Below, piece after piece: positions 1,851 to 63,389 of a DNA stretch of 64,000 bases. Source of the DNA: Odontocerum albicorne (lineage: Eukaryota; Arthropoda; Insecta; Trichoptera; Odontoceridae); NCBI GenBank assembly GCA_949825065.1, contig OX463856.1, forward strand, positions 348,702-412,701. The letters run 5' to 3'. How positions within the stretch are numbered: position 1 is the stretch's first letter; every line of letters begins with the position of its first letter. Both the position numbers and the translations under genes were made by a program. The notes beneath the pieces are model-generated. The model worked only from the letters and a program-made list of their open reading frames with translations, was not told the origin of the DNA and searched no databases.

Positions 1851-2610
1851 GTAGTATAATTATAATAGAATACGACCATTTCTTTCTTAGTATATAAAAA
1901 CCAGATATCAACAAATGAGTCTTAATGATGAACCGTCTTTAGAATTTCCCCCAGGTCTCTGGACCGTTGAGTTAATCATTGTTATGGGCTCAATTAATGA
2001 ACTTAATGCCAACGTTATACCCGATTATGCTTTCCAACATATCCATATTCTCGCAGCGGGTAATAACCAATGAACAGCCTTATATTAGTTGAATGATAAA
2101 AATGTTCAGATTGAAAATGAAATAAAAATATTTGCAAAATAGGACAAAGAAAAATGAAATAAAATATTTACAGAATAGGACAAAGAAGAAACGCTGGCTA
2201 CTTTGCAGCTATCGGAGACTGTGCATGCAAATAGAAAAAAATACAATCTGGATTATTCGACATCAGCTGCCGTGCAACCAGCAAAACACATCTTCCATAA
2301 TCCTTGACCACTTGTGACGTTTGCAATACTAACATACTCGTACACCTACTCGTACTCGTGCCTAGTCAAAGAGGATAGAAAATACAATAAAAATCAATGA
2401 GATTCACTTAGACTGGGTTAACTCCAGATGTGAGGATATTTATAATATTTAAAAACAAGTGACTTGGGCCGGTTCCTAACTGTAGACTTGAGAAATTTGT
2501 TTGCTTTCTTTAAGTTCTGCTCGCAGAACTCTCTCTTTAATAAATACAGCACAGTGCGAGCGTTACTCGCGCCGATCCTCGCTACGCCCCTCCTCCGGCA
2601 CTTGTTCTGA
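1851..2610. other. Spacer with one short duplication
   Basis: A roughly 41-bp duplication (aaatgaaataaa...ataggacaaagaa) lies at 2114-2192. TACTCGTA octamers occur at 2335 and 2347. No gene is recognisable. Confidence 0.5.
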
Positions 2611-2637
2611 TTAGCATTAGCATTAGCATTAGCATTC
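2611..2637. repeat. (GCATTA)n microsatellite
   Basis: Four to five tandem hexamers. On the minus strand this gives a short Asn-Ala run in a chance open frame. Confidence 0.85.
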
Positions 2638-2844
2638 ATAGCCCGCTAAACATTTCCTCCGAACTTACCTACAAAATTAACAAAAATACTCTTAAGGCCT
2701 AATCATATTTCCATCCCTCTTCACTAAAAGTGGTCTCCGTAAATTTATTTCAAGTGAAACGCTTTATATGAAAATATTTTAAGTTAAACACTTTTTTAAA
2801 TCCCTATCAATTTATTATGAAAACGGAATATCCCTAAGTGTATT

Positions 2845-3395
2845 CATAACATAGACAACACCTTCTTGATAGGGGTGCGTTATCAGTCGTGGATCTTAGT
2901 ATTTTTTTAAAACATAGTATCAAATAACTTGTGTTTATTTTGATAGTCTACTCTCCTTCGATAGGCAAATAGATTAGACTTTTTTTTAACATTTAATTAT
3001 CTTGATAGTCAACTCACCATTGGTTGGCAAATAGATTATATTGTTTTTATAAAAATATAGCACCCAATTACTTGGTATTTGTCTTGATAGTCAACTCACC
3101 ATTGGTTGGCAAATCGATTATATTGTTTTTATCAAAAGATAGCACCCAATTACTTGGTATTTGTCTTGATAGTCAACTTTCCTTTAATAGACAAATGTCC
3201 CCCGATAGGTAAAAATAGTTTAAATGTATTTTTTTTAAATAACATCTAGATGGATATACTTCTTGATGAGGATGCTTTATCAATTATGGGCGTTAGTTTT
3301 CTTTTTCAAAAGAAAGCATAACATTACTGAGTGTTTATCGTGAAAGTCTACTCTCGTTCGATAGGCCAATAGGTAAGACAGTTTTACACTGTTAC
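2845..3395. repeat. Diverged tandem repeat family, period about 80 bp
   Basis: The phrase cttgatagtcaactcac/ttggcaaatag recurs near 2938, 3000, 3083, 3164 and 3333. A longer variant with 'gggcgttagt' appears at 2870 and 3280 and again as an isolated piece at 28740-28850. The copies are diverged, so the array is old. Confidence 0.75.
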
Positions 3396-3484
3396 ATATA
3401 ATGAGTGCTAGATACTATTAAAAAATTGCATGTAACATAAGTTTTAAATATGTGGTGTAAAAAAATATGTACTCACTTTTACAC

Positions 3485-3975
3485 CGTGACGTTTACTTGA
3501 ACTTGCTGGAGGAAGTCATCATACCACGTGGTCTTGAGGGATAAAAGGAACTTTGGTTCCAGAAAATGCACCTCTTCACTTCCATTATGATGTGATCTAA
3601 TCTTAGTGACAAGTTGCCGGACAGATGGATTGGACGTAGATGTACGAGTATGTTAGCATTGTACATGTATGGTATGTTATATCCTCCGCACTCCCCAGAG
3701 CTCACGCCAATGAACTTTTTTTTATCGGCAACAATTAATTGAGATCATTAAAAGAAAATGCGCCCAAATACCAAAACAAATTATTCGTGATGTTTACGAC
3801 TGCACGTTATCAGCAGCGTATGAACAATAACGGCCTTTAATTTGAGCACTTGCGAATGCTTTGAAAATTTACGTTTGTTTTCTTTCATTTGAAGTTTTAA
3901 TATCGGACATATCTTCATAAAAACTGAATTTATAATATGTACTCGTATTTTAAAGTGTGCATACATTTTTGAAAC
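3485..3975 (+). pseudogene. Degenerate IS630/Tc1-mariner-superfamily transposase
   Basis: The plus-strand translation, in pieces, reads LPDRWIGRR then, after an insertion, PPHSPELTPMNFFL. That is the layout around the second and third catalytic positions of DDE_3-type transposases (cf. RWIGRR...PPRSPDLTPLDFFLW). Frameshifts and stops interrupt it. The insertion between the two blocks includes a TACGAGTA octamer at 3643. The exact family is not resolved; no terminal repeats were identified. Confidence 0.55.
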
Positions 3976-4064
3976 AGCCTGTATTTATTTGTTTTATTCA
4001 TCCACATTCGATGGTGACCTCCAAATAGTATCCTACATTTTTTACGTCATCAGCCACTAATCTT

Positions 4065-4200
4065 CGTGTCCTAGTTGGTAAGACTCCTATCTTCCGATCC
4101 GGTGGTTACAGGTTTGATTCCTGTTAGTACACAATTTCCCGGCCACGCATTTAAATATTTCCGCGTCGCTAATTTAGAAGTGTTGAGGTGTACATATCAC
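4065..4200 (+). mobile_element. SINE head fragment
   Basis: A tRNA-like module: Box A-like tcctagttggtaagac and Box B-like ggtttgattcc. Same arrangement as the SINE at 29875-30090; the LINE-like tail is absent. Confidence 0.6.
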
Positions 4201-4734
4201 ACTAATGAATAAAAAAGAAATTAGTTTTCGCAAACCTTACGTTTACCTTCCCATTATTCTCAGCCTACTTGATAACATTTAAATTGTATCTTCATCTCTA
4301 TTACAAAGGTAATCAATTAATCGTGATCGAAAAACGAAACGAATAAATAACAAAAAAACTCAATGTATGAAAAAATTTGAACCAATCTGACTAAAAATGC
4401 TTGAGAGCAAACACCGTGATTAATTCACTGTGTCCAGAGCACTCTGTATTGGTTGGCTACAAATCATCCAGCCAGCCTCCGCCGCACATGATCCCAGCCG
4501 AGATCCCATCTCGTGCCAGTGGACACGGACACATTCAATACGGTGATCGCCACTGTAGATAGCCGAGTCAGGGGCCGCTCTCAACTACCACGCTGTTTAT
4601 TTGGTGCTTTGTGTATTCGTACAAAACATTCACCAAATATTCGAGCAAATCTAGGCAATGTTGTACAAGTATATTGGAGGCATGTTCACGTCCGATGGTC
4701 GCGTGAAACGTGATATTGAAAGTAGAGGCAATGA

Positions 4735-5300: not shown

Positions 5301-6333
5301 TTATTTATTTAACACTTTTATTGTAATACAATCTGGCGGGCTTATTGTCAGGTGGCAATCTCTTCCAACCAACCAGACAAAAGTAAATGAAGCAAGTTAC
5401 GTGGTCGCATAAATCATTCAAATGACTATCCATCCCCACGAAATTCATAAACATATACGCGAGAACATGCCCACGAACCCCACAAAGACGGACAATCACC
5501 CGAACATTATTTTTCATATAAAATGAGATATCATCAATCAAATGGAAAGGAAAGGATGGTGAAGAGGAAAGGAAAAGAAAAATCAGGAATGAAACACGTT
5601 ATTTTACTGCCTAGAAATTAAGAGTTTTTTCAGTCGCTTCTTAAAGCATGCCAAGGACGGAGCGAGTCTTATATTGGTTTGTAACTGATTCCAAAGTCTC
5701 ACTGCATGGACAGTAAACGACGACGTAAAGAAAGAAGAGCGATGAACTGGAAAGGCCAATAAACAATCTCTGTTTGAGCGTAGCGCTAATCCATGATTGG
5801 AAAGACGCTGAAAATTTTCGGCGAGATAAGAGGGTGCGGCGGGACAGTTAAGGATATTATACAATAGAGACAGTATGTGAATTTGGCGTCTATTTCTAAC
5901 ATTCAACCAGTTCAATGCCTTCTGGTATGAAGTTATATGATCGTACTTTCGTAGGTTGAAAATAAATCTTAGACACACATTTTGAAGACGCTGTAATTTG
6001 TCCAGCTGTTCCTCTGTAACATACGTCCGCATAGTCCAGAATCGGAAAGAGCAGAGACTGTACGAGTAAAATTTTGGTTTTAGTTGGTAGGAATCTTTGC
6101 AACACTTTAAGGGAATGAAGGCTGAAGAAGATCCTTCGGCTTACCTCATTTATTTGATCTCGCCATGAGAGAGTGTTATCTATTAGCACTCCTAGGTTTT
6201 TAACAGTTTTATGTAATGGTATGATAGAGCCATCAAGTAATATTGGAGGAAGTAAGTCAGTGTTGAATTTACCGAGAAGCTGAGGGCTGCCAACGAGGAT
6301 CGCTTGAGACTTCTTAGGATTTATGAGTAATAT
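5285..6333 (-). mobile_element. LINE-A copy 1, 5'-truncated non-LTR retrotransposon
   Basis: Near-identical over its length to LINE-A copy 2 at 27440-28705, in the opposite orientation. It starts (5' side, minus strand) at ataaatcctaagaag and ends with a gcaataagcccgccag tail, an aataaaa-like signal and a (TAAA)n run at 5290-5310. It sits between two parts of a 21-bp minisatellite, so it inserted after that array existed. Superfamily is CR1/Jockey/I-like; clade not assigned. Confidence 0.85.
5604..6189 (-). pseudogene. LINE-A reverse transcriptase C-terminus, frameshifted
   Basis: Two minus-strand frames cover one protein: 6189 to about 6035 (VLIDNTLSWRDQINEVSRR ... LDYADVCY) and about 6032 to 5604 (VTEEQLDKLQRLQNVCLRF ... 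FKKRLKKLLISRQ). This is the thumb/C-terminal part of a non-LTR retrotransposon RT; the catalytic YADD block is lost by 5' truncation. Compared with copy 2, 11 bases are missing between two GTTAC repeats near 6025, which causes the frameshift. Not functional. Confidence 0.85.
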
Positions 6334-7700: not shown

Positions 7701-8921
7701 CTCTTTATACATTGTATTGTACATTTATGTATACTAACCATTTTCATTTAAGAGCTCAAATTTAGTTGCTTTATATGACTTATCTCGCTTGTTGTTTTTT
7801 AATCAATCAGACTAGCAATTGTTTAGCGTTCTTGAAAACTTCCCATTTCAAAGGCGAAATATTGTCTTATACGATAAATAACTTCCTTACAAAATTGTTT
7901 GCACTTTCATTCAATTCAGATATCACTTGATCGATTGATCCGATTTATATTTTGCGCATTTTATTTTATTTTTGTCAATTATCGTTCTCTCGTCGCCGCA
8001 GAATACTCCCAACACACTCGTAGTACCTCAGCTATAGTGTCGTGATAAAATATTTCGGAGAATCCACCTAATTCAGACTACTAGGTACAGGTACTCGTAT
8101 AATCGTTTGATATTTCTTAATCAATCATTATCGTTGAATTTTCACGAACGTTCATGTTTTTTATTGTTTCAATTCAAGATTGTGTTAAATAGTTTTAAAT
8201 TCTCGCTGTTATATTATCGATGTTCATATTTATATTCAAATCTCCGTGAACGATGAATAAATCATTTTCAACATTTATTCTGTGGCACCAATCTACAAAA
8301 TATTTCAAAATTATAAGTCATTTGAAAAACGATACAGAATCTCTTTTATTCCCTTTTCCGAACCTTTTATATTTCTATGGCTTCAATCGAAACATTAATA
8401 GGATACAGCTTCAAAATATACAAATACCTGCACCATACGGCCAATGATTACCTATAGCCCATTCACCCTTCACCCGTCACCCGTCACCCGTGTGTTGTCT
8501 GAGCGAAATGTGACTAGTATGTTACAATGGTGGTGTGGCTGTGGCTTTGGAAGGAGATTCACTTTTATCCTATATTCTCAGTAACACAAGTCAAACTGAG
8601 GAAGACAATATGTGGTTAATAAATACGCGAACGTGTAAAAGTACTTCTAGGCCCGCTGAATGTGCCAGCAAGCTAGAAATATTTAAATAAAACACCTTTT
8701 CAAACGTCCATCAAACAAAAATCTTCAGAGAGCAACTTTTTATTAAGCACTGGGCATCCCTTAATCCCCATTGAGAGCTCCACATTCCGTCGAATGGTCG
8801 AGCGCTTATTTGTTATATTACAATTCAAGAGAAGTTGTTCTGAAAAAAAAAGGTTTACTCGAAGAAGATTGAGATAAAAAATAATAAAAAATACAATATT
8901 ATTGAATATCGCCAATATCGT
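7701..8921. other. AT-rich spacer without recognisable gene
   Basis: One TACTCGTA at 8092 and a short (CACCCGT)n run at 8465-8490. Open frames are short and match nothing I know. Confidence 0.5.
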
Positions 8922-9383
8922 GAATATTTCCCATACTCGTATCATGTAGGCGGCTCTGCCCTTTGCGGTGTACCTGATGAATATTTCCCATACTCGTATC
9001 ATGTAGGCGGCTCTGCCCTTTGCGGTGTACCTGATGAATATTTCCCATACTCGTATCATGTAGGCGGCTCTGCCCTTTGCGGTGTACCTGATGAATATTT
9101 CCCATACTCGTATCATGTAGGCGGCTCTGCCCTTTGCGGTGTACCTGATGAATATTTCCCATACTCGTATCATGTAGGCGGCTCTGCCCTTTGCGGTGTA
9201 CCTGATGAATATTTCCCATACTCGTATCATGTAGGCGGCTCTGCCCTTTGCGGTGTACCTGATGAATATTTCCCATACTCGTATCATGTAGGCGGCTCTG
9301 CCCTTTGCGGTGTACCTGATGAATATTTCCCATACTCGTATCATGTAGGCGGCTCTGCCCTTTGCGGTGTACCTGATGAATTG
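8922..9383. repeat. 57-bp minisatellite, about 8 near-identical copies
   Basis: Units start gaatatttcccatactcg at 8922, 8979 and every 57 bases. Copies look identical, so the array is young. Each unit carries TACTCGTA. The period is divisible by three, so two long open frames of 19-residue repeats appear on the minus strand; I regard them as by-products. Confidence 0.97.
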
Positions 9384-10639
9384 TGGTGAATTTCGTTTAT
9401 TTCAAAACCGAAAATAAGCGTACCGAAATCCTTTTTTCCGTGGAAAAGGCCGATCATTTGAGTAAATAACATGCGATGCCTATCAAAGGTCCAAAGTAAA
9501 CATTAAAAATAATTCGGTGGAATTTGCTTCGCCTCGTTTTTTATTTATTCCTAGAAAATTGAGCGCCTCGTTAGAGGAACAGCGCACAACGCACAACGCA
9601 CAACGCACAACGCACAACGCACTTGTAGTGGATTCCAGCCGGAAAAGCTATCGAGCAGTTATTCAACTTGTTTACACTTTATAGAATTGTTTAACGATTT
9701 TATTACTTTATTCTCCTCTCGTATTCTTTTTCCATTCTTTTAATGATAATTGCATCAGTGTTATTAAGGTTATAGATATTTTATATCCCTCGAGTTTGAT
9801 TTCGTGCGCGTATTAATTCATCATCATCATTACCATCGTTCTTTGAAACTGTTTTTTATTATAAGTTTTATAAAAACTAATTTGCCAAACGAACAGTTTC
9901 CTGGTAATGGTAATGGTAATAACTTCAAAGAAAATTTTAAAATTTTAATTACATTCATTTTCATTATTTCGTGTACACGGTTAACCATGGTACATCTGGC
10001 AGACTTATTTGATATACAACAATTTTATCCAACCAACCAGATCATCTTGATAACATTAAACTGTTTGAATCCATGAAAGATTTACAAAAAAATATCCTTT
10101 TAAATTTGAACAAAAAAACAAGTAAAATAATAATCTTACAATAATCTTACAATAATGGCAGAATTAGAAAAAAAGGAAATTTATTCAACGATTAGGAGAA
10201 TAATAAAAAAAATGTTATGGAATAATTTAATAAGTGTATAATATATTGTTTACTCTCTCTTAAACATAAATAATGTCGGTACTCATCTGATAAATCTTGG
10301 AAATACAATCCCCAGTCGCTCCGACTGAACCGCAAATGAAATGTGTATAATGTGGAGTGATGTGTTGGTATGCGAAGGAATCTCCCATCACCTGATGGAA
10401 GAAAACGTCCGTGTTTTGAAAGTATTGGAATTTTCCCAAATATATGAAGGAGAATTGTGATCGTAAAGCTCGAAAAATAATGGCAACAGAATGTGAAAGC
10501 TCCAAAAAATAAATGCAATAATCCAATACAATGTTCAAAATCCACACTAATATAATAACAGATAACTTGACAATCGTACAAAGTCTAATCGATATTATTT
10601 TCTCATACGTTGAAGTGTCAATGTCAAATGTCACCATCT
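9384..10639. other. AT-rich spacer with simple repeats
   Basis: Holds a (GCACAAC)n heptamer run at 9582-9624 and a short (GGTAAT)n at 9902-9925. Minus-strand open frames at 10192-10637 are unremarkable. Confidence 0.5.
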
Positions 10640-11560
10640 AAGCCGTCCAACTGATGCGAGTATAGCCGAGTAGCCATAACTTGTATACATACACGTATTA
10701 ATTCTCGCGACCCTCGTAAGCCGTCCAACTGATACGAGTATAGTCGAGTAGCCATAACTTGTATACATACACATATTAATTCTCGCGACCCTCGTAAGCC
10801 GTCCAACTGATACGAGTATAGCCGAGTAGCCATAACTTGTATACATACACATATTAATTCTCGCGACCCTAGTAAGCCGTCCAACTGATACGAGTATAGT
10901 CGAGTAGCCATAACTTGTATACATACACTTAGTAATCTCGCGACCCTCGTAAGCCGTCCAACTGATACGAGTATAGTCGAGTAGCCATAACTTGTATACA
11001 TACACATAGTAATCTCGCGACCCTCGTAAGCCGTCCAACTGATACGAGTATAGCCGAGTAGCCATAACTTGTATACATACACATAGTAATCTCGCGACCC
11101 TCGTAAGCCGTCCAACTGATACGAGTATAGCCGAGTAGCCATAACTTGTATACATACACATATTAATTCTCGCGACCCTCGTAAGCCGTCCAACTGATAC
11201 GAGTATAGTCGAGTAGCCATAACTTGTATACATACACATAGTAATCTTGCGACCCTCGTAAGCCGTCCAACTGATACGAGTATAGCCGAGTAGCCATAAC
11301 TTGTATACATACACATATTAATTCTCGCGACCCTCGTAAGCCGTCCAACTGATACGAGTATAGTCGAGTAGCCATAACTTGTATACATACACATAGTAAT
11401 CTCGCGACCCTCGTAAGCCGTCCAACTGATACCAGTATAGCCGAGTAGCCATAACTAGTATAAATACACATATTAATTCTCGCGACCCTCGTAAGCCGTC
11501 CAACTGATACGAGCATAGCCGAGTAGCGATAACTTGTATACCATACATACACGTATTAAT
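10640..11560. repeat. 78-bp minisatellite, about 12 copies
   Basis: Units begin aagccgtccaactgata and contain TACGAGTA. Two length variants alternate (attaattctcgcg and the shorter agtaatctcgcg), together with a C/T variant in tagccgag/tagtcgag, giving an irregular higher-order pattern. Long minus-strand open frames across the array are repeat by-products. Confidence 0.95.
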
Positions 11561-13619: not shown

Positions 13620-13935
13620 AATGTTTCTTATACGGTAAAAAAATATATGGATTGATTAATTATGAATGTGAATTTAAGGGTGATATGTTGAGTTAGATGA
13701 AGATGAGCTCTGTGAGGTGTTTTGGATGCATGAATCAAATGATTGAATAAGGACTAACAAAATATGCGAAAACAGTGCAAATGTGAGTGAAAGGCGAGGT
13801 AGAGAAAAATACTATTGGATCAAGTACGAGTATATGATATTAAAAAAGGAAATATAAAAAAAATGTGAAATCTGTATGAGAAGGTGTATGGATGTAGGAG
13901 AAGCGAAAAAAGTCTAACGAACTCCCTTTTCTGTT
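13620..13935 (+). pseudogene. WFGH LINE C-terminal fragment
   Basis: Aligns by eye with the reverse complement of 4735-5110: gaatgtgaatttaagggtgatatgtt, then a degenerate gaggtgttttggatgcatg (WFGH region), then gactaacaaaatatgcg (LTKYAK) and ggatcaagta (LDQV). It is interrupted by stops and by a TACGAGTA at 13825. Confidence 0.7.
13825..13832. other. TACGAGTA octamer behaving as a 6-bp insertion
   Basis: The relative at 4735-5110 reads ...GATCGAGTATACGAT (minus strand), where this copy has ...GATCAAGTACGAGTATATGAT. Leaving out CGAGTA here brings the reading frame back into register with LDRVYD of the other copy. Confidence 0.6.
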
Positions 13936-13959: not shown

Positions 13960-16900
13960 CATAATTTCAAGAGTAATAATGTATGCCAGAATACGGAATG
14001 AAGTGATACGGGATGAAGTGTGAAATTAAGGCCGATGTGTTAAACAAGATGAAGAATAGTACGTTGGGATGGTTTGGACATATGGAAGATATGAACGAAG
14101 ACAGGCTAACAAAACAAGATGAAGAATAGTACGTTGGGATGGTTTGGACATATGGAAGATATGAACGAAGACAGGCTAACAAAACAAGATGAAGAATAGT
14201 ACGTTGGGATGGTTTGGACATATGGAAGATATGAACGAAGACAGGCTAACAAAACAAGATGAAGAATAGTACGTTGGGATGGTTTGGACATATGGAAGAT
14301 ATGAACGAAGACAGGCTAACAAAACAAGATCAAGAATAGTACGTTGGGATGGTTTGGACATATGGAAGATATGAACGAAGACAGGCTAACAAAACAAGAT
14401 GAAGAATAGTACGTTGGGATGGTTTGGACATATGGAAGATATGAACGAAGACAGGCTAACAAAACAAGATGAAGAATAGTACGTTGAGATGGTTTGGACA
14501 TATGGAAGATATGAACGAAGACAGGCTAACAAAACAAGATGAAGAATAGTACGTTGGGATGGTTTGGACATATGGAAGATATGAACGAAGACAGGCTAAC
14601 AAAACAAGATGAAGAATAGTACGTTGGGATGGTTTGGACATATGGAAGATATGAACGAAGACAGGCTAACAAAACAAGATGAAGAATAGTACGTTGGGAT
14701 GGTTTGGACATATGGAAGATATGAACGAAGACAGGCAAACAAAACAAGATGAAGAATAGTACGTTGGGATGGTTTGGACATATGGAAGATATGAACGAAG
14801 ACAGGCTAACAAAACAAGATGAAGAATAGTACGTTGAGATGGTTTGGACATATGGAAGATATGAACGAAGACAGGCTAACAAAACAAGATGAAGAATAGT
14901 ACGTTGGGATGGTTTGGACATATGGAAGATATGAACGAAGACAGGCTAACAAAACAAGATGAAGAATAGTACGTTGGGATGGTTTGGACATATGGAAGAT
15001 ATGAACGAAGACAGGCTAACAAAACAAGATGAAGAATAGTACGTTGGGATGGTTTGGACATATGGAAGATATGAACGAAGACAGGCTAACAAAACAAGAT
15101 GAAGAATAGTACGTTGGGATGGTTTGGACATATGGAAGATATGAACGAAGACAGGCTAACAAAACAAGATGAAGAATAGTACGTTGGGATGGTTTGGACA
15201 TATGGAAGATATGAACGAAGACAGGCTAGCAAAACAAGATGAAGAATAGTACGTTGGGATGGTTTGGACATATGGAAGATATGAACGAAGACAGGCTAAC
15301 AAAACAAGATGAAGAATAGTACGTTGGGATGGTTTGGACATATGGAAGATATGAACGAAGACAGGCTAACAAAACAAGATGAAGAATAGTACGTTGGGAT
15401 GGTTTGGACATATGGAAGATATGAACGAAGACAGGCTAACAAAACAAGATGAAGAATAGTACGTTGAGATGGTTTGGACATATGGAAGATATGAACGAAG
15501 ACAGGCTAACAAAACAAGATGAAGAATAGTACGTTGGGATGGTTTGGACATATGGAAGATATGAACGAAGACAGGCTAACAAAACAAGATGAAGAATAGT
15601 ACGTTGGGATGGTTTGGACATATGGAAGATATGAACGAAGACAGGCTAACAAAACAAGATGAAGAATAGTACGTTGGGATGGTTTGGACATATGGAAGAT
15701 ATGAACGAAGACAGGCTAACAAAACAAGATGAAGAATAGTACGTTGGGATGGTTTGGACATATGGAAGATATGAACGAAGACAGGCTAACAAAACAAGAT
15801 GAAGAATAGTACGTTGGGATGGTTTGGACATATGGAAGATATGAACGAAGACAGGCTAACAAAACAAGATGAAGAATAGTACGTTGGGATGGTTTGGACA
15901 TATGGAAGATATGAACGAAGACAGGCTAACAAAACAAGATGAAGAATAGTACGTTGAGATGGTTTGGACATATGGAAGATATGAACGAAGACAGGCTAAC
16001 AAAACAAGATGAAGAATAGTACGTTGGGATGGTTTGGACATATGGAAGATATGAACGAAGACAGGCTAACAAAACAAGATGAAGAATAGTACGTTGGGAT
16101 GGTTTGGACATATGGAAGATATGAACGAAGACAGGCTAACAAAACAAGATGAAGAATAGTACGTTGGGATGGTTTGGACATATGGAAGATATGAACGAAG
16201 ACAGGCTAACAAAACAAGATGAAGAATAGTACGTTGGGATGCTTTGGACATATGGAAGATATGAACGAAGACAGGCTAACAAAACAAGATGAAGAATAGT
16301 ACGTTGGGATGGTTTGGACATATGGAAGATATGAACGAAGACAGGCTAACAAAACAAGATGAAGAATAGTACGTTGGGATGGTTTGGACATATGGAAGAT
16401 ATGAACGAAGACAGGCTAACAAAACAAGATGAAGAATAGTACGTTGGGATGGTTTGGACATATGGAAGATATGAACGAAGACAGGCTAACAAAACAAGAT
16501 GAAGAATAGTACGTTGGGATGGTTTGGACATATGGAAGATATGAACGAAGACAGGCTAACAAAACAAGATGAAGAATAGTACGTTGGGATGGTTTGGACA
16601 TATGGAAGATATGAACGAAGACAGGCTAACAAAACAAGATGAAGAATAGTACGTTGGGATGGTTTGGACATATGGAAGATATGAACGAAGACAGGCTAAC
16701 AAAACAAGATGAAGAATAGTACGTTGGGATGGTTTGGACATATGGAAGATATGAACGAAGACAGGCTAACAAAACAAGATGAAGAATAGTACGTTGGGAT
16801 GGTTTGGACATATGGAAGATATGAACGAAGACAGGCTAACAAAACAAGATGAAGAATAGTACGTTGAGATGGTTTGGACATATGGAAGATATGAACGAAG

Positions 16901-17765
16901 ACAGGCTAACAAAACAAGATGAAGAATAGTACGTTGGGATGGTTTGGACATATGGAAGATATGAACGAAGACAGGCTAACAAAACAAGATGAAGAATAGT
17001 ACGTTGGGATGGTTTGGACATATGGAAGATATGAACGAAGACAGGCTAACAAAACAAGATGAAGAATAGTACGTTGGGATGGTTTGGACATATGGAAGAT
17101 ATGAACGAAGACAGGCTAACAAAACAAGATGAAGAATAGTACGTTGGGATGGTTTGGACATATGGAAGATATGAACGAAGACAGGCTAACAAAACAAGAT
17201 GAAGAATAGTACGTTGGGATGGTTTGGACATATGGAAGATATGAACGAAGACAGGCTAACAAAACAAGATGAAGAATAGTACGTTGGGATGGTTTGGACA
17301 TATGGAAGATATGAACGAAGACAGGCTAACAAAACAAGATGAAGAATAGTACGTTGAGATGGTTTGGACAGATGGAAGATATGAACGAAGACAGGCTAAC
17401 AAAACAAGATGAAGAATAGTACGTTGGGATGGTTTGGACATATGGAAGATATGAACGAAGACAGGCTAACAAAACAAGATGAAGAATAGTACGTTGGGAT
17501 GGTTTGGACATATGGAAGACAGGCTAACAAAACAAATGTACAGTGCAGAATGTTAGGAAAACGAAGAAAAGTATTATTGGATCAAGTATAATATGGTACA
17601 TGATATAAATTATATTCTCAATTGAGGAAACATAGAAAGTTAGAGGAATCGTAGGAGTTGTACGGATGTGGAAGAGACTAAATATGTTTATCGAGATAGG
17701 AAAATATGCCGTTTTGTCCTCTCTACCCATCCCGACAGAAAAATGTATTTAATATCCGTTTTTTT
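13960..17765 (+). mobile_element. WFGH LINE 3' fragment carrying an internal 70-bp expansion
   Basis: Left flank 13990-14041 encodes IRNEVIRDE and, after one frameshift, CEIKADVLNK. The array itself encodes KNSTLGWFGHMEDMNEDRLT. The right flank from 17536 continues with a decayed coding region (tattattggatcaagta) and ends near 17760 with the minus-complement of the common tail (cccatcccgacag). The LINE segment is otherwise only about 350 bp; the array has stretched it to 3.8 kb. Confidence 0.8.
14042..17535. repeat. 70-bp minisatellite, 50 copies, born in LINE coding sequence
   Basis: The unit runs from one AAACAA (14042) to the next. The last AAACAA (17530-17535) joins directly to LINE sequence. 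The length equals 50 x 70 minus 12; the missing 12 bases are in the last copy, between two GAAGA repeats. Copies are almost identical. A G-to-A variant (acgttgagat) sits at 14481, 14831, 15461, 15951, 16861 and 17351, always a whole number of units apart. The many 61-residue minus-strand open frames are artefacts. Confidence 0.98.
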
Positions 17766-19735
17766 AGCACAGTACAACAATATTATTTTGTTACCCGAAG
17801 GTAAAGGTAAGGTCTGAAACGAATGAATGGAGCCGAAATCTTAAATGGAATACCATATTTTTGCCAAAAGGTCCATAATATGTCGATAAACTTCCACACA
17901 CTTCGATTGCAATACAATAACAATGCCGCAACACAGTGCAGGTATAGTGCAGGTATAGTGCAGGTATAGCATTGGCAATATTAGAATTATATAAGGAGGA
18001 GAAGGAGCGGCCGAGAACGATGTATTACAATATATAATATTTAATGTAAACGCTTTTGCAAGGAGCGGCCTACCCGTGGAGATTTATAGCTTCATTTGTT
18101 CCTCACTCTATCCTATCCCCAAAGGCCGTGGCTGAGGGAAAGAAATTAATATTGCCACCCTACATAATACATAATACGCGCAATATATTATATTATAGAA
18201 CAGACCAGACAACACTGAGGACCGATCTTCGGCGTATAGTTATGAAATTCTTAAAATATTTAATAAGAAAAATACTGTCATAAATCATGTAAAAACATCT
18301 TAACGCAGATCATCGTCATTTAAATAAATAAAGATTTATTGATAGTAATATAAGATATCAATGTATAGCTTAATAATGCACATATATTTTAAAATAATAA
18401 AAAAGAAAATATATTTGGAAGAGGAGCTATCAAAGGGTCTAGGTTTGCCTCGTAGCATATTCCCCAACGAGATACACCCCTAACACCAAGTCAGATGTGT
18501 TCAACCCTCACCCCACACCCTTGTATACGTAAACTATAATACAAAAAATAAATAACAATAAAGAAGCAGTTAATGCAATTATGTTAGTGTCACCGCCGGA
18601 AAAAGAATCCTTTTGTCCAGTTTGTTCTTCGTCTCTAAGTGACGTTGCGCTCATAAGAAAAGAAAATTTAGTTCGCTACTGTAGATCGCGCTGTATGGAC
18701 TTATTTATCGTCAATGAGAGCGTGGATAGTTATAAAAGATCGAATGGAACTGAACAAACTGGTTATAAATATAAACGAAAATACTGGAGAAATAAGTTTT
18801 CTAGATATTTATTGGACAACATCAAAAGAATTTCATCACGAAAGCTGTTGATTTCTAACATTTGTGAGTCATTTATAAAAGTCTACCCAGATCGTGTGAA
18901 ATATCCATAAAAAAGACAGGGATTTTGCGATTCGTGAAAAATACATAAAATACAATGTTTGACTCTGATCAGAAGGAGTAAAGCAGAGTTCAAGATTTTA
19001 TTGATGTCCCGTATGATATCCCGTTTAAAAATAATAAAACACGTCACGTGAGCGGGAATATCCTGGCCGGAGGGATTTGTTTCCTCGTGCAGCTTTATGG
19101 ATATAATAAAGGTCCTGCTTCGCTGCCCATAAATATTTATAGCAGCTGATCAACCCCCACTCCGGCACCTCGATCCCTTCCTCCTTATCCCAGTTACCAG
19201 TGGCATATCTAGATTATAGCGAAATAGGTTTCTTAGTCTTATAAAAAAAAGGATCTTAGTCTGATAAGAGACATCGTCCGGTAACTCGGTGTAAGTTAAA
19301 TATTTGTCTGCGTGTATATTGAGTCATTCGTCTCGTTATTCGAGTTGATTAATTATAACCCTCTCATCTCTCTCCGCAGATTTTGTCATCGCGTCACGCA
19401 AACGTCGATCACAGTTGTTAGTGATGACCTAATTTAAAGACGTATATTCGCATGTCTGTCTTATGGCTGGACGATCCTGCCAAGGTTATGCAAAGACCCA
19501 CTCTATTCTTCTACTTTTTTCTCAATTTTGTTTAGATTCATCCTATATTATCCCCACCGACCACATTCAGGAACACGTCAAGATGTAGGTTTTAAGCTAT
19601 TATTTGATATTTAATCACGAATGAGAACCTCGACCATAATTCTAGCTTGGTTCATTGTTGTGTTTATCATTTTCAATACATATAATATTATACTAAGTGC
19701 ATTTTCCTTTCTTGTCGGTGTTTCGATTTGTGGAG
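17766..19735. other. Spacer, no recognisable gene
   Basis: Contains a 12-bp triplicate (gtgcaggtatag) at 17938-17968. An open frame at 18581-18910 (109 codons, CPVC and RYCRSRC near its start) has no family I recognise. A G+C-richer, unique-looking block lies at 19040-19200 (cacgtcacgtgagcgggaat onward) and could be conserved non-coding DNA. Confidence 0.45.
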
Positions 19736-20158: not shown

Positions 20159-20743
20159 AAAAATCCGTAGTTTTTCTTCCTCTCCTTGATGTTATGTTGC
20201 GGAAATCATTCCAGTGAAGAAATCACCTTTTAGGTGCACTTCCTGGAATGCGAAATTCTACAATACATGGATCTCGAGTGCTACTACGTGTAATATATAT
20301 AGAATCCTGTCACTGCCCATCTTATACCATACACATGGGTCACACTAGCACCGCCTTTTCTTTCTTCTCTCTCTCTGACTGTATTCTGTTTTGGGTGTTT
20401 CATATCTGTTGCATTAAATCATTTATAACCTTACCTCGCAGAGATTTTTACGCGATGGTTCGTAGCATTTTCATCTCATGTTTTCTAATTGTATTGGCTC
20501 TGGTTTTAACCAAATCATTATATTATAAGTCATATTGGGTCTAACGCAAACTTTACAAATTTTGTCTTTGTTGTCAATTCACTGTTCATTTAATATTTTG
20601 TTCAGATTATTTCTCTTAGATTACCAGATATTGAGCTGCCTATTATTAAATATGATGGTAGTTATTTGACGTATTTCGGACAGTACTATATATTACGAGT
20701 ATTGATTCCGGGAATAAGAATTTGGAGAAATGTTTAATTGAAA
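20159..20743. other. Spacer with one unremarkable open frame
   Basis: The 98-codon plus frame at 20248-20544 is hydrophobic in places but has no recognisable motif or neighbouring exon; I do not call it a gene. One TACGAGTA occurs at 20694. Confidence 0.4.
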
Positions 20744-42760: not shown

Positions 42761-43109
42761 GGTTAAACATACTCGTATATATAAATAAATATTTTTGAGG
42801 GAAAAACAATGTAAACGAGAATAAAGAATGAGGACGTAAGGAAATAATGCAGATTGAAAGAAGATACAAGGAAGGGGAGTAGTATTCGTAGCAGGACCAA
42901 ATTCAGGAAGCAGAAAGAATGAAAACCTTTTATTGTGTTTAAGGAGATACTCGTATACATGATGACGTGTACGAACGTGGCAAAAGCGAAATATATATAT
43001 CGGTATTGAATGAAATAAAGATATATTTTCTCTGCATATCTCAAAAAGAATTAATATATTGATTATTGGCATTCAAGCTTATTTAATCAGTTTAGTATTG
43101 AACGTACCG

Positions 43110-44618: not shown

Positions 44619-44724
44619 GTTTCGTATAAATTGAAAATTTAATAAAATACTAGTTTAATATAAAACAGCGTAATTTGTACAAGATCTCAATAATGTTTAT
44701 AACTACTCGTGATGTTTGTTTGTC

Positions 44725-46009
44725 AATGTAGAAGATGTAACATATGTTAGTAGCAATGTAGAAGATGTAACATATGTTAGGAGCAATGTAGAAGATGTAA
44801 CATATGTTAGGAGCAATGTAGAAGATTTAACATATGTTAGGAGCAATGTAGAAGATGTAACATATGTTAGTTGCAATGTAGAAGATGTAACATATGTTAG
44901 TTGCAATGTAGAAGATGTAACATATGTAAGTTTTAATGTAGAAGATGTAACATATGCTAGGAGCAATGTAGAAGATGTAACATATGTTAGTTGCAATGTA
45001 GAAGATGTAACATATGTTAGGAGCAATGTAGAAGATGTAACATATGTTAGTTGCAATGTAGAAGATGTAACATATGTTAGGAGCAATGTAGAAGATGTAA
45101 CATATGTTAGTTGCAATGTAGAAGATGTAACATATGTTAGTTGCAATGTAGAAGATGTAACATATGTTAGGAGCAATGTAGAAGATGTAACATATGTTAG
45201 TTGCAATGTAGAAGATGTAACATATGTTAGGAGCAATGTAGAAGATGTAACATATGTTAGTTGCAATGTAGAAGATGTAACATATGTTAGGAGCAATGTA
45301 GAAGATGTAACATATGTTAGTTGCAATGTAGAAGATGTAACATATGTTAGGAGCAATGTAGAAGATGTAACATATGTTAGTTGCAATGTAGAAGATGTAA
45401 CATATGTTAGGAGCAACGTAGAAGATGTAACATATGTTAGTTGCAATGTAGAAGATGTAACATATGTTAGTTGCAATGTAGAAGATGTAACATATGTTAG
45501 TTGCAATGTAGAAGATGTAACATATGTTAGTTGCAATGTAGAAGATGTAACATATGTTAGTTGCAATGTAGAAGATGTAACATATGTTAGGAGCAACGTA
45601 GAAGATGTAACATATGTTAGTTGCAATGTAGAAGATGTAACATATGTTAGTTGCAATGTAGAAGATGTAACATATGTTAGGAGCAACGTAGAAGATGTAA
45701 CATATGTTAGTTGCAATGTAGAAGATGTAACATATGTTAGTTGCAATGTAGAAGATGTAACATATGTTAGGAGCAACGTAGAAGATGTAACATATGTTAG
45801 TTGCAATGTAGAAGATGTAACATATGTTAGTTGCAATGTAGAAGATGTAACATATGTTAGTTGCAATGTAGAAGATGTAACATATGTTAGTTGCAATGTA
45901 GAAGATGTAACATATGTTAGGAGCAACGTAGAAGATGTAACATATGTTAGTTGCAATGTAGAAGATGTAACATATGTTAGTTGCAATGTAGAAGATGTAA
46001 CATATGTTC
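44725..46009. repeat. 30-bp minisatellite, 43 copies, with higher-order structure
   Basis: The unit aatgtagaagatgtaacata... has two main forms ending ttaggagc or ttagttgc. The first half mostly alternates them (60-bp super-unit). In the second half a third form ending gagcaacgta recurs at 45411, 45591, 45681, 45771 and 45921, i.e. every 90-180 bases. Each unit contains the palindrome TAACATATGTTA. All six frames stay largely open because 30 is divisible by three. Confidence 0.98.
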
Positions 46010-47872: not shown

Positions 47873-48564
47873 GCTGCAGGCATACTCGTACATAAAGTTT
47901 GCAACCACTGTCCTACTCAATACAGAAACCGGCCGAAATAAAATTATTCCTTCCGCAAATCCTCACTCGGAAATAACGTTCAATTCTTGCAGATAATCAG
48001 TTCAAAAGGCCCTCAGATCTCGGGAATAGTGCGGCAGCTCCTTAAAATTCCCTTCAGCGCAGCGCAGGGCAGATCTTCAGGAAATATAATGAGACTGTCC
48101 TTCCGGAAACATTTCCCTCTCCCTTTTCCATCGTTTTGTAGCTGCCCGATAGCATTTTGGAAAAGTGTTGAACCCGAAAATAAGTAGGTACTTATTTAAT
48201 ATTTCCAGCTAACGGCGGGATCCCGGGAGCGGGAGTCCGGGCTAATCAAGTCGCCGCCAGACAACCGTCAAATCAGCGTTACATATAAGAAAAACCTTAA
48301 TGACTTAACATATTTGATAAAACGATTACAATTATATTCCACTAGAACTACAATAGAACTAGAGGGTTTTGTATTTGATTCTCTTTCGAATCTTGAAAAA
48401 AAGGGCACTGAGTCAAAGTTGCCATTAATCCATGAAGTGTTGTTTACAGAACAACCTAACGGGCTTATTGCTCTGTTACGAGTAAACGCTCTTCCAAATA
48501 ACGATAAAGATGTTCAATAGGCCGTAATTAAAAATCAGACTAGAATGGATTTTAAAAAATAGTG
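47873..48564. other. Unique spacer with G+C-richer pieces
   Basis: 48000-48290 (cagcgcagcgcagggcagat; ggcgggatcccgggagcggg) is compositionally distinct. An open frame at 48314-48517 has no recognisable motif. Octamers at 47883 and 48477. Confidence 0.4.
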
Positions 48565-48635: not shown

Positions 48636-49179
48636 AATATATCCCGAGACACTCTGATCCTAAACAAACCAGCAAAAAATTTGACTATGGCTCCAACAAA
48701 GGCATTCAATTAATAATGATTGCTGATCAGGAAAATATGAGACGAGAAATGGTATCCGATCGCCGTCTCCCTACTTTGGAGTAGCCTCTAAAGACGTGCC
48801 GCCTCCTCAGCTCTCAGCTATCCGTCCAAGAACCCCAGACTCCAGGCCTCAGACCGTCTGCCTTCAGTACCGATGCTTAGCTATTGCCACATTCACTCCC
48901 TAATTGAATATTCCGGTTTCGGCACGATGAATCCCAATAACATACTCGTAATATAATCCCACCCTTTAGTTTGCTTCTTACTATAAAGTTTTTCATAAAA
49001 ATTAAAAATATCAAATCTAAGTACGTCCTGTGTCATGGAGTGGTTTCCTCTTAGTGTTAAAGATATGGGGGGCGTGTGGAGCTCTACAAAATGCTTAAAG
49101 ACAGTCTTTTTTGGAGATCTTATAAAAAATTAAGATGCTATATGAACACTACACTACACCTAATACAGAATGTGTTAAA
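48636..49179. other. Spacer
   Basis: One TACTCGTA at 48943. 48775-48885 is richer in C with several ctcag repeats. No gene. Confidence 0.4.
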
Positions 49180-50112: not shown

Positions 50113-50235
50113 TCCGGCATTCACTTAAGGTTCCTCTAACTCCTCTCTGGTTGGCTGGAAAAGATTGCCACATGGCAATAAATCACCACGTTATACCGTT
50201 TACAACGAAAGTTAAACTACAATACAATAATATCT
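50112..50235 (+). mobile_element. SINE 3' half (body and tail)
   Basis: cactccggcattcacttaag aligns with the body at 29970, then tggttggctggaaaagattg and ccacatggcaataa form the tail stem-loop, then an acaatacaata end. The head is missing or was displaced by the poly(A) SINE to the left. Confidence 0.7.
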
Positions 50236-51463: not shown

Positions 51464-52389
51464 AAAAAATCTAAAAAGTGACATAATTAATTGAAATTCT
51501 GTTTGATTTTTAGATTCAGGTCTCGGAATAAATTAAAACATCAGCACTTATGTATACGTTGACAACATTTTATGAACGTTATTAAAAAATATAAGCTAAT
51601 ATATTAAACATCTATAATTATAGTACTCGAGGCAAAAAAAAATATGAAAACTGTAATTACTAGCAAGAAAAAATACAAAAGTCGGGTTTTTATCGAATCT
51701 TATAGAATGTTATGTATTGTGCTATGTAGATATTATTCTTCCTTACGAATATGTAGCAAAATAAAAAAAAACAGTCCCGTAGCGCCAATACGGGATATGG
51801 CCGCGGAGTGACTAAGTGACTATAGCGGAGAAGAGCTCCTTGTTATTCCGGTTGTACCGTATATGTACATCGTTTATAAATCATATAATTAATTATTTTA
51901 TATTTAATTATGTACTTTTAAAGATGTTTCCACAGCATAATTCTGCACGATTTGTAGTTTCCTCAATTAAGCTTCATTACTTAGAAAAAAGAACACTTAA
52001 AAACATAATAAAACTATAATTATATCATATAGCAATTAAGATGAGTTTCGACATAACTTTCTGTCACTATATTAATTATTTATGGCACACTAAATCGATG
52101 GGAAGAATATCAACTTGAAAAAAAAACTTCGTTTTTAAGAAATGCGACATAAATAAATTTGACATTTATTATTGAGTGAGTGCACTCGTATGTGTAATGC
52201 CCGTAAATTTTTAAAATACCTCTTAAAAGTGATGCCATACTATAATGTTCCCTGATATCGTGCACGCAATATTGATATACTCGTATTTATTTTGCAGACA
52301 AAATCCCGCTTATTTCACAGACCCTCCGTCCTTCCTACAGTTCTTTATTTTTTATAAATATATCGGTACCCCCGGGGGAAACTGACTAG
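51464..52389. other. AT-rich spacer
   Basis: One TACTCGTA at 52278. No gene recognised. Confidence 0.45.
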
Positions 52390-55160: not shown

Positions 55161-55598
55161 CAGCATAATGATGTGAATGTTTGATTTATTACGAGTATGG
55201 TAAGAACAATGTAACGTCAGTACTAATGCCCCTCCTAGCGGCCATTTAAATACGAGTAGTAACAGCTGGAAGGTTTATGACTAAATATACGCCAAAGTAT
55301 TTGTATGAAAAGAAACCTTAAAGCCAGGGGCGCGGGGTGGAGAGGCTCGTATAATGCGGTCATTAGGACATTCTGCTAAGACCAGCCCCCGCCCCCTCGT
55401 TTCCGGGCCACCTACCTGCCCGCACACCGGTCAGCGGTCCAGAAAAGGGCTGATCTCGTGTCACTACACAGGAATGTATCAAGACTGGAAATCCGATGAT
55501 TTAAATAAATATCTCAGTTCATGTGATCAGCATCATCCTTAGATTTTCTCATTTATATAGAGACTGCGTGATGAGTCATCGCTCTCTTCTTCTAGAAT
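55161..55598. other. Spacer with G+C-rich piece
   Basis: 55325-55450 is G+C-rich (gccaggggcgcggggtggag; cagcccccgccccctcgttt) and unique. Octamers at 55190 and 55251. Confidence 0.4.
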
Positions 55599-57327
55599 AA
55601 TTACCGTGAACTCATGTAACATATGTTACATGAAGGAGTATATTCCAATATCAAGTGATGTGCACATTATAATTACCGTGAACTCATGTAACATATGTTA
55701 CACGAAGGAGTATATTCCAATATCAAGTGATGTGCACATTATAATTACCGTGAACTCATGTAACATATGTTACATGAAGGAGTATATTCCAATATCAAGT
55801 GATGTGCACATTATAATGACCGTGAACTCATGTAACATATGTTACATGAAGGAGTATATTCCAATATCAAGTGATGTGCACATTATAATAGCCGTGAACT
55901 CATGTAACATATGTTACACGAAGGAGTATATTCCAATATCAAGTGATGTGCACATTATAATTACCGTGAACTCATGTAACATATGTTACATGAAAGAGTA
56001 TATTCCAATATCAAGTGATGTGCACATTATAATTACCGTGAACTCATGTAACATATGTTACATGAAGGAGTATATTCCAATATCAAGTGATGTGCACATT
56101 ATAATTACCGTGAACTCATGTAACATATGTTACATGAAGGAGTATATTCCAATATCAAGTGATGTGCACATTATAATTACCGTGAACTCATGTAACATAT
56201 GTTACACGAAGGAGTATATTCCAATATCAAGTGATGTGCACATTATAATTACCGTGAACTCATGTAACATATGTTACACGAAGGAGTATATTCCAATATC
56301 AAGTGATGTGCACATTATAATTACCGTGAACTCATGTAACATGTTACATGAAGGAGTATATTCCAATATCAAGTGATGTGCACATTATAATTACCGTGAA
56401 CTCATGTAACATATGTTACACGAAGGAGTATATTCCAATATCAAGTGATGTGCACATTATAATGACCGTGAACTCATGTAACATATGTTACACGAAGGAG
56501 TATATTCCAATATCAAGTGATGTGCACATTATAATTACCGTGAACTCATGTAACATATGTTACACGAAGGAGTATATTCCAATATCAAGTGATGTGCACA
56601 TTATAATTACCGTGAACTCATGTAACATATGTTACATGATGTAGTATATTCCAATATCAAGTGATGTGCACATTATAATTACCGTGAACTCATGTAACAT
56701 ATGTTACACGAAGGAGTATATTCCAATATCAAGTGATGTGCACATTATAATTACCGTGAACTCATGTAACATATGTTACACGAAGGAGTATATTCCAATA
56801 TCAAGTGATGTGCACATTATAATTACCGTGAACTCATGTAACATATGTTACATGAAGGAGTATATTCCAATATCAAGTGATGTGCACATTATAATTACCG
56901 TGAACTCATGTAACATATGTTACACGAAGGAGTATATTCCAATATCAAGTGATGTGCACATTATAATTACCGTGAACTCATGTAACATATGTTACACGAA
57001 GGAGTATATTCCAATATCAAGTGATGTGCACATTATAATTACCGTGAACTCATGTAACATATGTTACACGAAGGAGTATATTCCAATATCAAGTGATGTG
57101 CACATTATAATTACCGTGAACTCATGTAACATATGTTACACGAAGGAGTATATTCCAATATCAAGTGATGTGCACATTATAATTACCGTGAACTCATGTA
57201 ACATATGTTACATGAAGGAGTATATTCCAATATCAAGTGATGTGCACATTATAATTACCGTGAACTCATGTAACATATGTTACACGAAGGAGTATATTCC
57301 AATATCAAGTGATGTGCACATTATAAT
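55599..57327. repeat. 72-bp minisatellite, 24 copies, with 20-bp palindrome
   Basis: The unit aattaccgtgaactcatgta... repeats from 55599. About a third of units carry the perfect palindrome CATGTAACATATGTTACATG; the others have ACACG at the end, which breaks its outer arm. Copy at 56332 lacks two bases. Long plus-strand frames of 24-residue repeats result from the period being divisible by three. Confidence 0.98.
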
Positions 57328-57814
57328 ATATTATTTCGGTAATTCTATTAACATGCGACGCATAACAGTTTAACACTCTCTATCATGCTCTGTCCAGGAC
57401 CATCCCGGAGTCAGGTTCAGATCCCTCTTTTCTTGGTTAATGCCTTCCTTCCATCGTTTCTTTGGACGACCTCTTCCACTTTTCCGGAGACTTCCATTTC
57501 CAGTGTCTGGTTTCCCACATATTCAGCAGTTTTATTTGTACGAGTATATGATCCTACTACTTTCAAATTCTGGTTATTTCTCACAAATTGGGCCTATCTT
57601 GCTTAGCATTCCTGGAATCCATCGCAGCAAGCGCATTTCGGTAACATGCTATTACTATATATGTTCTTGGGTTTTAGTTGTTGCCTAGCGCTCAACTCTA
57701 TACTAAGTTCTGTCTTACGACACAAATACCGAAATAACTCCCAACATATGAAGAGAAAATTTTACCTAAAATTTCAGCTTTAACTTTGTGAAACTTCAAA
57801 TTAAAATATTTATC
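57328..57814. other. Spacer
   Basis: 57385-57600 resembles decayed coding sequence: ctcttccacttttccggaga and gacgacctcttccac could be the complement of an RGRPR-type LINE C-terminus, but the match is too weak to call. TACGAGTA at 57539. Confidence 0.35.
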
Positions 57815-60743: not shown

Positions 60744-60751
60744 TACGAGTA
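60744..60751. other. TACGAGTA octamer, apparent 6-bp insertion
   Basis: See the comparison with 39670-39690: removal of CGAGTA here restores gtacata. Confidence 0.5.
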
Positions 60752-60753: not shown

Positions 60754-60761
60754 TACTCGTA
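60754..60761. other. TACTCGTA octamer, apparent 6-bp insertion
   Basis: Second insertion in the same fragment, in the opposite orientation; removal of CTCGTA restores cataa. Confidence 0.5.
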
Positions 60762-61145: not shown

Positions 61146-61239
61146 TAAAATCTTATTGGACCTTTTATTCGGCTCATTTCAGTTATTTTTCACGTCTACA
61201 TTTCACTTCCATATATACAATAATAATAAAATTCAGCGG

Positions 61240-61320
61240 CGTTTAGAAAGCACTCTCCTCAAGGGTGCTTTAACTTGGAATTCGAACCCACATTATTGAC
61301 GAATTAATAATATTTCAAAA
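61240..61320 (-). mobile_element. SINE head fragment
   Basis: Minus strand: gtgggttcgaattccaagtt is a good Box B; the Box A side is decayed. Confidence 0.45.
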
Positions 61321-61339
61321 AAATAATTCAAATTGAGTG

Positions 61340-61660
61340 TAAGGACAGAAAGGTAGTGGATGCGGCGATGATGTGAGGAACTTCTCCGCATCTGCACATG
61401 GCTAGAAAAACAAATTTGGTAATAAAACTGACCGAAGGAAGACGGACTACAAATACTTTTGTAGATCTTCTGATATTTGATAGTAACACATTTAGCATTA
61501 GCTGGAATGTATAGTAGTGCTCATATCAATTATACATTTAGCATTAGCTGGAATGTAGTGCTCATATCAATTATACATTTTGATGACTACCCAATACTGA
61601 TTATCTACAAGTGCTTCTAAAAGCTGCACAAGCAACCCTTTTCTCTAAAAGTTTGAGGCA
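61340..61660 (-). mobile_element. LINE-V 3' fragment, partly duplicated
   Basis: aaggtagtggatgcggcgat and tttgtagatcttctgatatt match the 53290-53775 copy. A ~50-bp piece (acatttagcattagctggaa) is duplicated at 61488 and 61537. Confidence 0.55.
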
Positions 61661-62054
61661 TACAAAATGACAACTGAAATGATACCATGAATTCTAGTTT
61701 TTTATGAATAAATAATTTAACTATTTGGTTTAAGTTCTATATAACATTTTACATCAATAAAAATTGACGAAATATAAATATTATTCAAGAAAACAAACAT
61801 TCACCCAAAAATTTTAATAAATTGTCGCGCCAATTTTTAAAACAATTCGAAAAACCAATCCTTGAAACTTCCGAGGGTAACACTTAAGTATGCACAACAT
61901 TTAAACTCTTCGCAAATAACCTTGAAAGAAATTAGACAGGTTCCTTTTCCGTAGAGATGAACAAGGATTCAGAATGAAGAGTCCACCACTGATACCACAC
62001 ATACAGATTAGATACATAGTTTTGATTAACCTACCGTATCACCATAGCCTAGAT
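61661..62054. other. Spacer
   Basis: AT-rich; no feature recognised. Confidence 0.45.
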
Positions 62055-62210
62055 CAGTGGTTCTTAACCGGTGCTCCGCGAGGATGTTACAAGTACTCCG
62101 TGAATATGAAACATTTGATCGAAGTTTGTCGAATTACTGTTGAATGCGAATTGCTGTTGGTAACGCAGCCGAGGCGCGGCCCAATATCCTACGTTCGCAT
62201 TATTGTGTAA
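62055..62210 (+). mobile_element. hAT-type terminus
   Basis: cagtggttcttaaccggtgc followed by tccgcgagg is the typical look of hAT (Charlie/SPIN-like) terminal repeats with the 'gtgctccgcga' sub-terminal region. No matching right end was found in the following few hundred bases, so this is a fragment or a solo end. Confidence 0.5.
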
Positions 62211-62264
62211 TATGTAATTTTTATTTATAAATAAAAGTGATGTTCATGCAGTTTTCTTAGCATA

Positions 62265-62345
62265 TTTTTGATGGTTGAAAGATATTTCCACATGGCAATA
62301 AGCCAGCCAAATTACACCACATAAAAAGAAAGTGTAATACATCCA
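62265..62345 (+). mobile_element. SINE tail
   Basis: gatggttgaaagatatttcc and acatggcaataagccagcc followed by gtgtaatac: the shared LINE-A/SINE tail including its stem-loop. Confidence 0.6.
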
Positions 62346-63389
62346 GGTCTAAAATATATTTTTACAAAATATTATAATTCATTTATTAAAATTGAAATCT
62401 TTCCGTAAATATGCCGGACACGATTTCATTGTGGAATGTCCATAGTAAAGTGAGTGACTCACCACTCACCAGTCTGATAGATAAGCACTGTTGTTCTCGT
62501 AACACCGAGATCGTTCTGCCTGAAGAGGGTCTAGGGTAGAGGAAGAAACACTTAATATATTGTTAATAAAATAGTGAAATCACAAAGTAACATTTGGTCA
62601 AATATTGTAAAAATCGATTATTAGTTATTTTTATTTTGTAAACTATCATTAAAGAGTTCTACAAATAAAAATCCAAAACATTTTTTAAGCAAATTGTTTT
62701 GAAACTTGTGTAAATTAAACAAATGAATTGTATGTAGATAAATAAATAGGTTGTGGACTGAGAAACATCTGACGTCCTCGCGACAGATCTCGCCCTCCTT
62801 TGGTGGACATATTTATCGACAGAGGGAATATGACGAGATGAGCCCAGATATTTTGATAGCTTCTCTCTTATTGTCTTTTCCATTGCTTTGAAATATAAGT
62901 GTAACTTCAGGATATAAATGTACGAGTATATGCACATACCATGTTGTTATCAATAAGCCTAATAAGAATTATTTTCGTATTTGACATTAAAAAAAATATA
63001 TTTTGGTTTTATTTAACTCGTTTTTTTTTAAATAATGGCCACACAAAACTCTGAAAAGAATAAATCGAGAACTTCAAGGAGACAGAAAATTCGGGAACTG
63101 TCGCAAATAACATTGGAGATAGAGACAAAAACGAGGACAGTAGAGGCTGTACAGAGAGATAAATACTTTCAGATAACTGCACAAAACAACACGAAGAACT
63201 GAAAAAGGAACGGAAATAGTTAAAAAGAAATTTGGGTTGAAAATTCAAATCAAGTAAATCATCTAGATACGTAAATTCGAAAACCAGATCCAAAAAAATT
63301 ACATCTTCCTTAAATAAAAACTCGCGTTAAAAACTTGCTCTTGAAGGCTTACTCCCTGAGTGGAACCGATTTGAAGAGGGATGCTACTA
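62346..63389. other. AT-rich spacer
   Basis: TACGAGTA at 62921. No gene recognised. Confidence 0.45.

Follow-up and report, generated by a model that had tools for sequence, protein, structure and literature searches.

An eight-base word that recurs through a 64-kb caddisfly sequence is probably the excision footprint of a Minos-type transposon

Transposon excision scars have mostly been observed singly, in laboratory assays. Here we analyse an octamer, TACGAGTA on one strand and TACTCGTA on the other, which recurs along 64 kb of the genome of the caddisfly Odontocerum albicorne (contig OX463856.1, positions 348,702 to 412,701; we call this whole stretch the window and number it from its first base), and most dispersed copies of which are probably excision footprints of a Minos-type (Tc1-like) transposon with CGAG ends. 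The closest described system is Minos of Drosophila hydei, which has the same TA target, CGAG end and six-bp footprint: its inverted-repeat primer TACGAGCCCCAACCACTATTAATTC (TACGAGCCCCAACC...) gives the end as TA-CGAGCCCC, that is, CGAG after TA (PMC3680223), and in Drosophila it often leaves a characteristic six-bp footprint (PMC3386967, in a passage citing Arca et al. 1997), with variants among excision alleles of 4, 6 and 8 inserted bp (PMC6980720). From such an end and a six-bp footprint it follows that TA plus four end bases would give TACGAGTA or TACTCGTA, so that the footprint derived for Minos is the octamer itself. Laboratory Minos footprints are single events, however, whilst here natural sequence carries the octamer at a density of about one per 1.2 kb, with no parent element seen in the window. 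Sleeping Beauty and Frog Prince likewise leave TA, end bases and TA, and either strand can serve as the template (tabulated as C(A/T)GTA by the review PMC3878927), but from a three-base overhang rather than four, and TACAGTA/TACTGTA is near background in the window (8 copies vs. 6.0–7.5 expected). Mariner-family elements such as Mos1 and Hsmar1 (the latter in the table of PMC3878927) also target TA, and the window contains a mariner whose ends are similar, but their scar is three-base. No report of natural Minos scars en masse was among the titles listed by searches of open-licence papers (at most 40 per search), so that their absence from the record is not proven; searches of PMC8472432 and PMC3979674 turned up nothing on Minos footprints.

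The octamer occurs 58 times in the window (26 TACGAGTA, 32 TACTCGTA), against a mean of 1.73 and a maximum of 6 in 100 dinucleotide shuffles of the whole window. Nineteen copies lie inside three tandem arrays, as called by Tandem Repeats Finder (63 rows in the window): two in 1067-1187, eight in 8921-9381 and nine in 10639-11547. The other 39 (17 TACGAGTA and 22 TACTCGTA, or 0.8 per kb) lie outside arrays, exactly as an earlier note on this DNA had counted them by hand, and all 15 of its example positions were recovered by exact-match search. That note's strong excess stood, its expectation of two or three copies did not: in the 46,770 array-masked bases, order-1 and order-2 Markov models predict 1.11 and 1.31 copies, making the octamer ~35-fold commoner than expected. 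The near-equal strand numbers, which the note had tied to the mechanism, were observed, but are to be expected of any word and carry no information on mechanism. Among 8-mers with at least eight copies in the masked sequence the octamer ranked first by z (z 36; 39 vs. 1.11), and among TA-N4-TA words with at least four copies it was the sole extreme word (z 33, runner-up 3.2). The comparison with composition- and CpG-matched words that the note had proposed, made here within the window, bore out the excess: 420 classes of eight-mers that share its letters and contain one CpG averaged 1.64 copies (octamer included) against 39, the next four classes being shifted forms of the octamer motif (20, 15, 10 and 7 copies) and the first unrelated class also reaching 7. 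The over-representation is real; shuffles, Markov expectations and matched word classes rule out chance or base composition as its cause. Some copies are not independent: those at 6061 and 27920 belong to a single retrotransposon present in two copies that are 94% identical, and those at 2335 and 3643 share a 26-bp inverted match (24 identical, octamer included), so that dropping the first pair and counting the second once leaves ~36 sites. The latter match is the core of an inverted repeat whose arms (2317-2349 and 3636-3668) lie 1.3 kb apart with the octamer in both, and no transposon was recognised between them.

We propose that the transposon would insert at TA and duplicate it, and that on excision its transposase would cut each 5'-ended strand at a point four bases into the element, leaving a CGAG 3' overhang on both flanks; pairing of the overhangs would involve their outer C-G bases and leave two G-A mismatches in the centre, and repair from one strand would yield TACGAGTA or TACTCGTA, 6 bp longer than the empty TA. 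The Minos-type form, TA + CGAG (or CTCG) + TA, is present in 39 exact copies, the words that independent repair of the two mismatches would create (TACGCGTA and TACTAGTA) in 0 and 0, and the double-overhang words TACGAGCTCGTA and TACTCGAGTA, rejected as products, in 0 copies each. Shorter staggers of CGAG ends left no excess either: the 2-nt product TACGTA occurs 7 times (10.3 expected) and the 3-nt scar TACGATA/TATCGTA 5 times (6.7–6.9 expected), which is background and fits a four-base stagger. The excess is confined to exactly eight bases, and the 24 one-mismatch neighbours of the octamer total 35, a background level (31.1 expected).

An insertion should also show as 6 bp gained relative to a plain TA, as the earlier note had predicted, and relatives of octamer-bearing DNA were therefore sought within the window and the octamer compared with its collapsed form; for the majority of the 39 sites the window offered no relative that could be used. 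The best case is the octamer at 48477-48484 (plus strand), which sits within a member of a 13-copy repeat tail family. With nhmmer this copy takes up 58 bases where a typed seed has 52 positions, and 54 where the family model has 48, +6 in both, whilst under a model made without it the other 12 copies have a net indel of 0 (ten copies), -1 (one) or +1 (one). Because the collapsed form outscores the uncollapsed against four of four relatives (nhmmer) and aligns without a gap over 58 bp to 35489-35546 (BLAST), the insertion may, in our own reading, be TTTA[CTCGTA]AC. The short repeat tail of the family, GGTTGGNTGGAAGAGATTGCCA...GCAATAAGCCCGCC, has its 13 copies at 22571-22618, 28623-28672, 50147-50195 and ten more places, one of them directly downstream of a reverse transcriptase frame, and a search with a tail pattern found no match.

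Three further sites point the same way with less force. At 13825-13832 (plus strand), in an RTE-like 3' repeat, nhmmer preferred the collapsed form against three of four relatives (5076-4768, 39613-39386 and 58418-58217) and scored it lower against the fourth (17477-17697), which carries an insertion of its own, and a MAFFT alignment was ambiguous near the insertion. The octamer at 42770-42777 (minus strand) sits at a retrotransposon 3' end, within its A+T-rich tail, where relatives span the site only if it is collapsed, in weak, low-complexity alignments. At 27557-27564 (plus strand), in a reverse transcriptase frame that reads YADDLHI(RV)YIHF, it encodes R-V between the YADD box and the next tyrosine, and RV resembles two extra codons; the usual spacing is presumably two residues shorter. 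A comparison of this frame with PDB sequences returned one chance-level match, and the R2/LINE-1 matches of another fragment ended short of the YADD box. Relatives found with the collapsed form only, all marginal or of low complexity, were seen for 36350-36357 (minus; one relative, E 0.007), 39169-39176 (minus; A+T-rich, BLAST), 42948-42955 (minus; BLAST), 62921-62928 (plus; one BLAST relative, 18336-18464), 60744-60751 (plus) and 60754-60761 (minus), the last two together reading TACGAGTA-CA-TACTCGTA, as though adjacent TAs had each been struck. Direct evidence of insertion thus covers at best ~4 of the 39 sites: the 6-bp gain is supported at 48477, with mixed results at 13825, weak ones at 42770 and the reading frame at 27557, and it failed at 6061/27920; the remaining sites are carried by the sharp common word.

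As words one mismatch away are near background, the scars would be young or still forming. In a simple age model, 38 scars at a mean per-base divergence of 5% should leave 47 one-mismatch words (P of 35 or fewer, 0.04), at 8% divergence that probability falls to 0.001, and the observed excess corresponds to ~1% divergence. With 0.8 scars per kb, accumulated at an even pace during a span of twice the mean age, the rate would be about one scar per 30 (at 1.3%) to 125 (at 5%) substitutions.

The flanks may carry a trace of target choice. Tc1/mariner elements prefer to insert at AYATATRT, a palindromic site that is A+T-rich around the TA, and the flanks of the octamer lean to ATR-TACGAGTA-YAT; the match to AYATATRT averages 3.05 of 6 against 2.43 at all TA sites (z 3.3, in a test made after the flanks had been seen).

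Several results weigh against footprints of a Minos-type element. The near-lack of decayed copies demands a process that is recent or still under way. The flanks are only slightly palindromic (0.33, 0.38 and 0.38 vs. 0.27–0.30 at the nearest three positions, and none farther out), and flanking A+T is not raised (0.622 vs. 0.634). Nine octamers fall within 1.6 kb (35665-37232), a number that none of 2000 random placements on TA sites reached, and a regulatory motif could cluster too; neighbouring octamers less than 50 bp apart form five pairs, where 1.6 are expected (p 0.02). At 48477, nhmmer draws the six extra bases as GTTTAC, beside and partly overlapping the octamer, rather than CTCGTA, and the family model that left this copy out aligned its right part alone (hmm 27-51, E 0.047). 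For 13825, BLAST favours the uncollapsed form against two of three relatives, and the site counted against insertion in a blind collapse test; overall in that test five of eight octamers with relatives were better collapsed compared with 22 of 78 control TA-N4-TA sites, a small sample, and at 36525 a marginal relative slightly favours the retained octamer (14.3 vs. 13.5 bits). Both 94%-identical retrotransposon copies carry the octamer, at 6061-6068 (plus strand) and 27920-27927 (minus strand), in a coding frame (KILLVQSLLF) that reads KILLVQSLLFPILDY, and so it is probably native coding sequence there, with no insertion and no scar; codon usage, tried as an explanation of the octamers, covers this pair only. 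The letters of the Minos footprint, presumably TACGAGTA/TACTCGTA, were derived rather than taken from a paper. Nor is a parent at hand: the opening 14 bases of the Minos end, counting the TA, gave three matches in the window, a chance level (1.67 expected), no parent with CGAG ends was seen by eye among the TACGAG sites of the window besides the mariner, and none was among the 25 longest of its 571 inverted repeats, the mariner again excepted. A missing parent in 64 kb is no contradiction, as every end-joined jump leaves a mark and a small number of highly mobile copies could be enough.

The window does hold one element with suitable ends, a mariner at 43200-44149 (plus strand) with TA-CGAGGC...GCCTCG-TA termini, 36-nt arms that are 92% complementary and a mariner-type transposase fragment, and the earlier note took it for the source. 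The note's arithmetic held, in that CGAG...CTCG ends cut with a four-base stagger would give the octamer, but this family as the writer is unlikely: its cuts would have to fall four bases in from its ends, one more than is usual, Tc1/mariner overhangs are given as 2 or 3 bp (review PMC3878927), and the 3-nt scar that a mariner should leave is not enriched. Selection on a functional DNA motif, such as a protein-binding site or an insulator, could keep the word exact, and would account for the sharp 8-bp limits, the few decayed copies, the flank lean and the nine clustered copies; the cluster lies partly in a G+C-richer stretch, which could be an insertion hot spot or a promoter-like region, and in one reading it marks open chromatin favoured for insertion. 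We rate such a motif as improbable, somewhat more so than the mariner, since some octamers lie in retrotransposon fragments and repeat tails, point mutation does not yield a 6-bp gain at TA, which a regulatory reading of the cluster also leaves unexplained in the repeat, and in repeat-rich DNA it would seem hard to sustain selection on sites that occur roughly every 1.2 kb. That the octamers belong to a short repeat family, as its terminal repeats or as pieces of it, is very improbable: the inverted match of 2335 and 3643 and the octamers carried by three tandem arrays are what such a family might produce, but outside the pairs 6061/27920 and 2335/3643 the sequences flanking the 39 copies have only a weak preference in common, on which ground terminal repeats were rejected, and comparison of the window with itself revealed no common family among the matches listed.

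If most of the octamers are indeed Minos-type footprints, a bolder reading is possible, which we offer tentatively and would not yet back: a few very mobile copies may have written near-identical end-joining scars so recently and so often that the scar became the most over-represented word of the genome, and at about one scar per 30–125 substitutions it might act as a transposition odometer with the ancestral state known at each site. With one nearly undecayed scar per 1.2 kb, excision rates and the balance of end joining and copying repair would be readable from an assembly, as would insertion preference and the age of activity even where the transposon is rare or gone. The scars could also serve as population markers of known ancestral state, and can insert 6 bp in frame into coding sequence, as seemingly at 27557.

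The remaining octamers are exact matches dispersed over the window. Towards its start lie 2335-2342 (minus) and 3643-3650 (plus), whose match may be one event copied, 2347-2354 (minus), 4 bp from the former, 3940-3947 and 8092-8099 (both minus); these are followed by 20694-20701 and 25863-25870 (both plus), and 26325-26332, 28961-28968 and 30331-30338 (all minus). The cluster runs from 35665-35672 (plus) through 35703-35710 (minus), 36024-36031 (plus), the already described 36350, 36484-36491 (minus), 36525-36532 and 36541-36548 (both plus) and 36765-36772 (minus) to 37225-37232 (minus). Beyond it are 38504-38511 (plus), 38834-38841, 38968-38975, 47883-47890, 48943-48950 and 52278-52285 (all minus), and 55190-55197, 55251-55258 and 57539-57546 (all plus). 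Within the arrays, the octamer is present in two of three 39-bp units (at 1092 and 1170) of 1067-1187, in eight 57-bp units of 8921-9381 and in nine of twelve 78-bp units of 10639-11547, where the other three differ by one base.

The window is A+T-rich (36.6% G+C outside arrays) and holds fragments of non-long-terminal-repeat retrotransposons and mariners, with reverse transcriptase and transposase fragments in a Pfam scan; ARAGORN found no tRNA genes in it, and its proteins had no relatives among the viral and genome contigs searched. Long, near-identical minisatellites occur at 14042-17519 (70-bp units), 44724-46008 (30-bp) and 55597-57327 (72-bp), these three with 94–99% matches, and elsewhere. 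Two other words are over-represented in the unmasked window: TATCAAATA/TATTTGATA (10 copies vs. 1.6–1.7 expected) and TACATA/TATGTA (75 vs. 37–47), the latter being the word that a Tc1-type element ending in CA would leave as its 2-nt footprint, though it could stem from simple A+T-rich repeats. A scan of IMG/VR for three close octamers returned 48 stretches of contigs classed as viral; seven contigs of 42–43% G+C (L015, L021, L024, L029, L030, L038 and L041) carry 8–11 copies of TACGAGTA against 0.5–1.1 expected, grouped into six or seven distinct clusters, and the word there may be a phage motif with no relation to the window.

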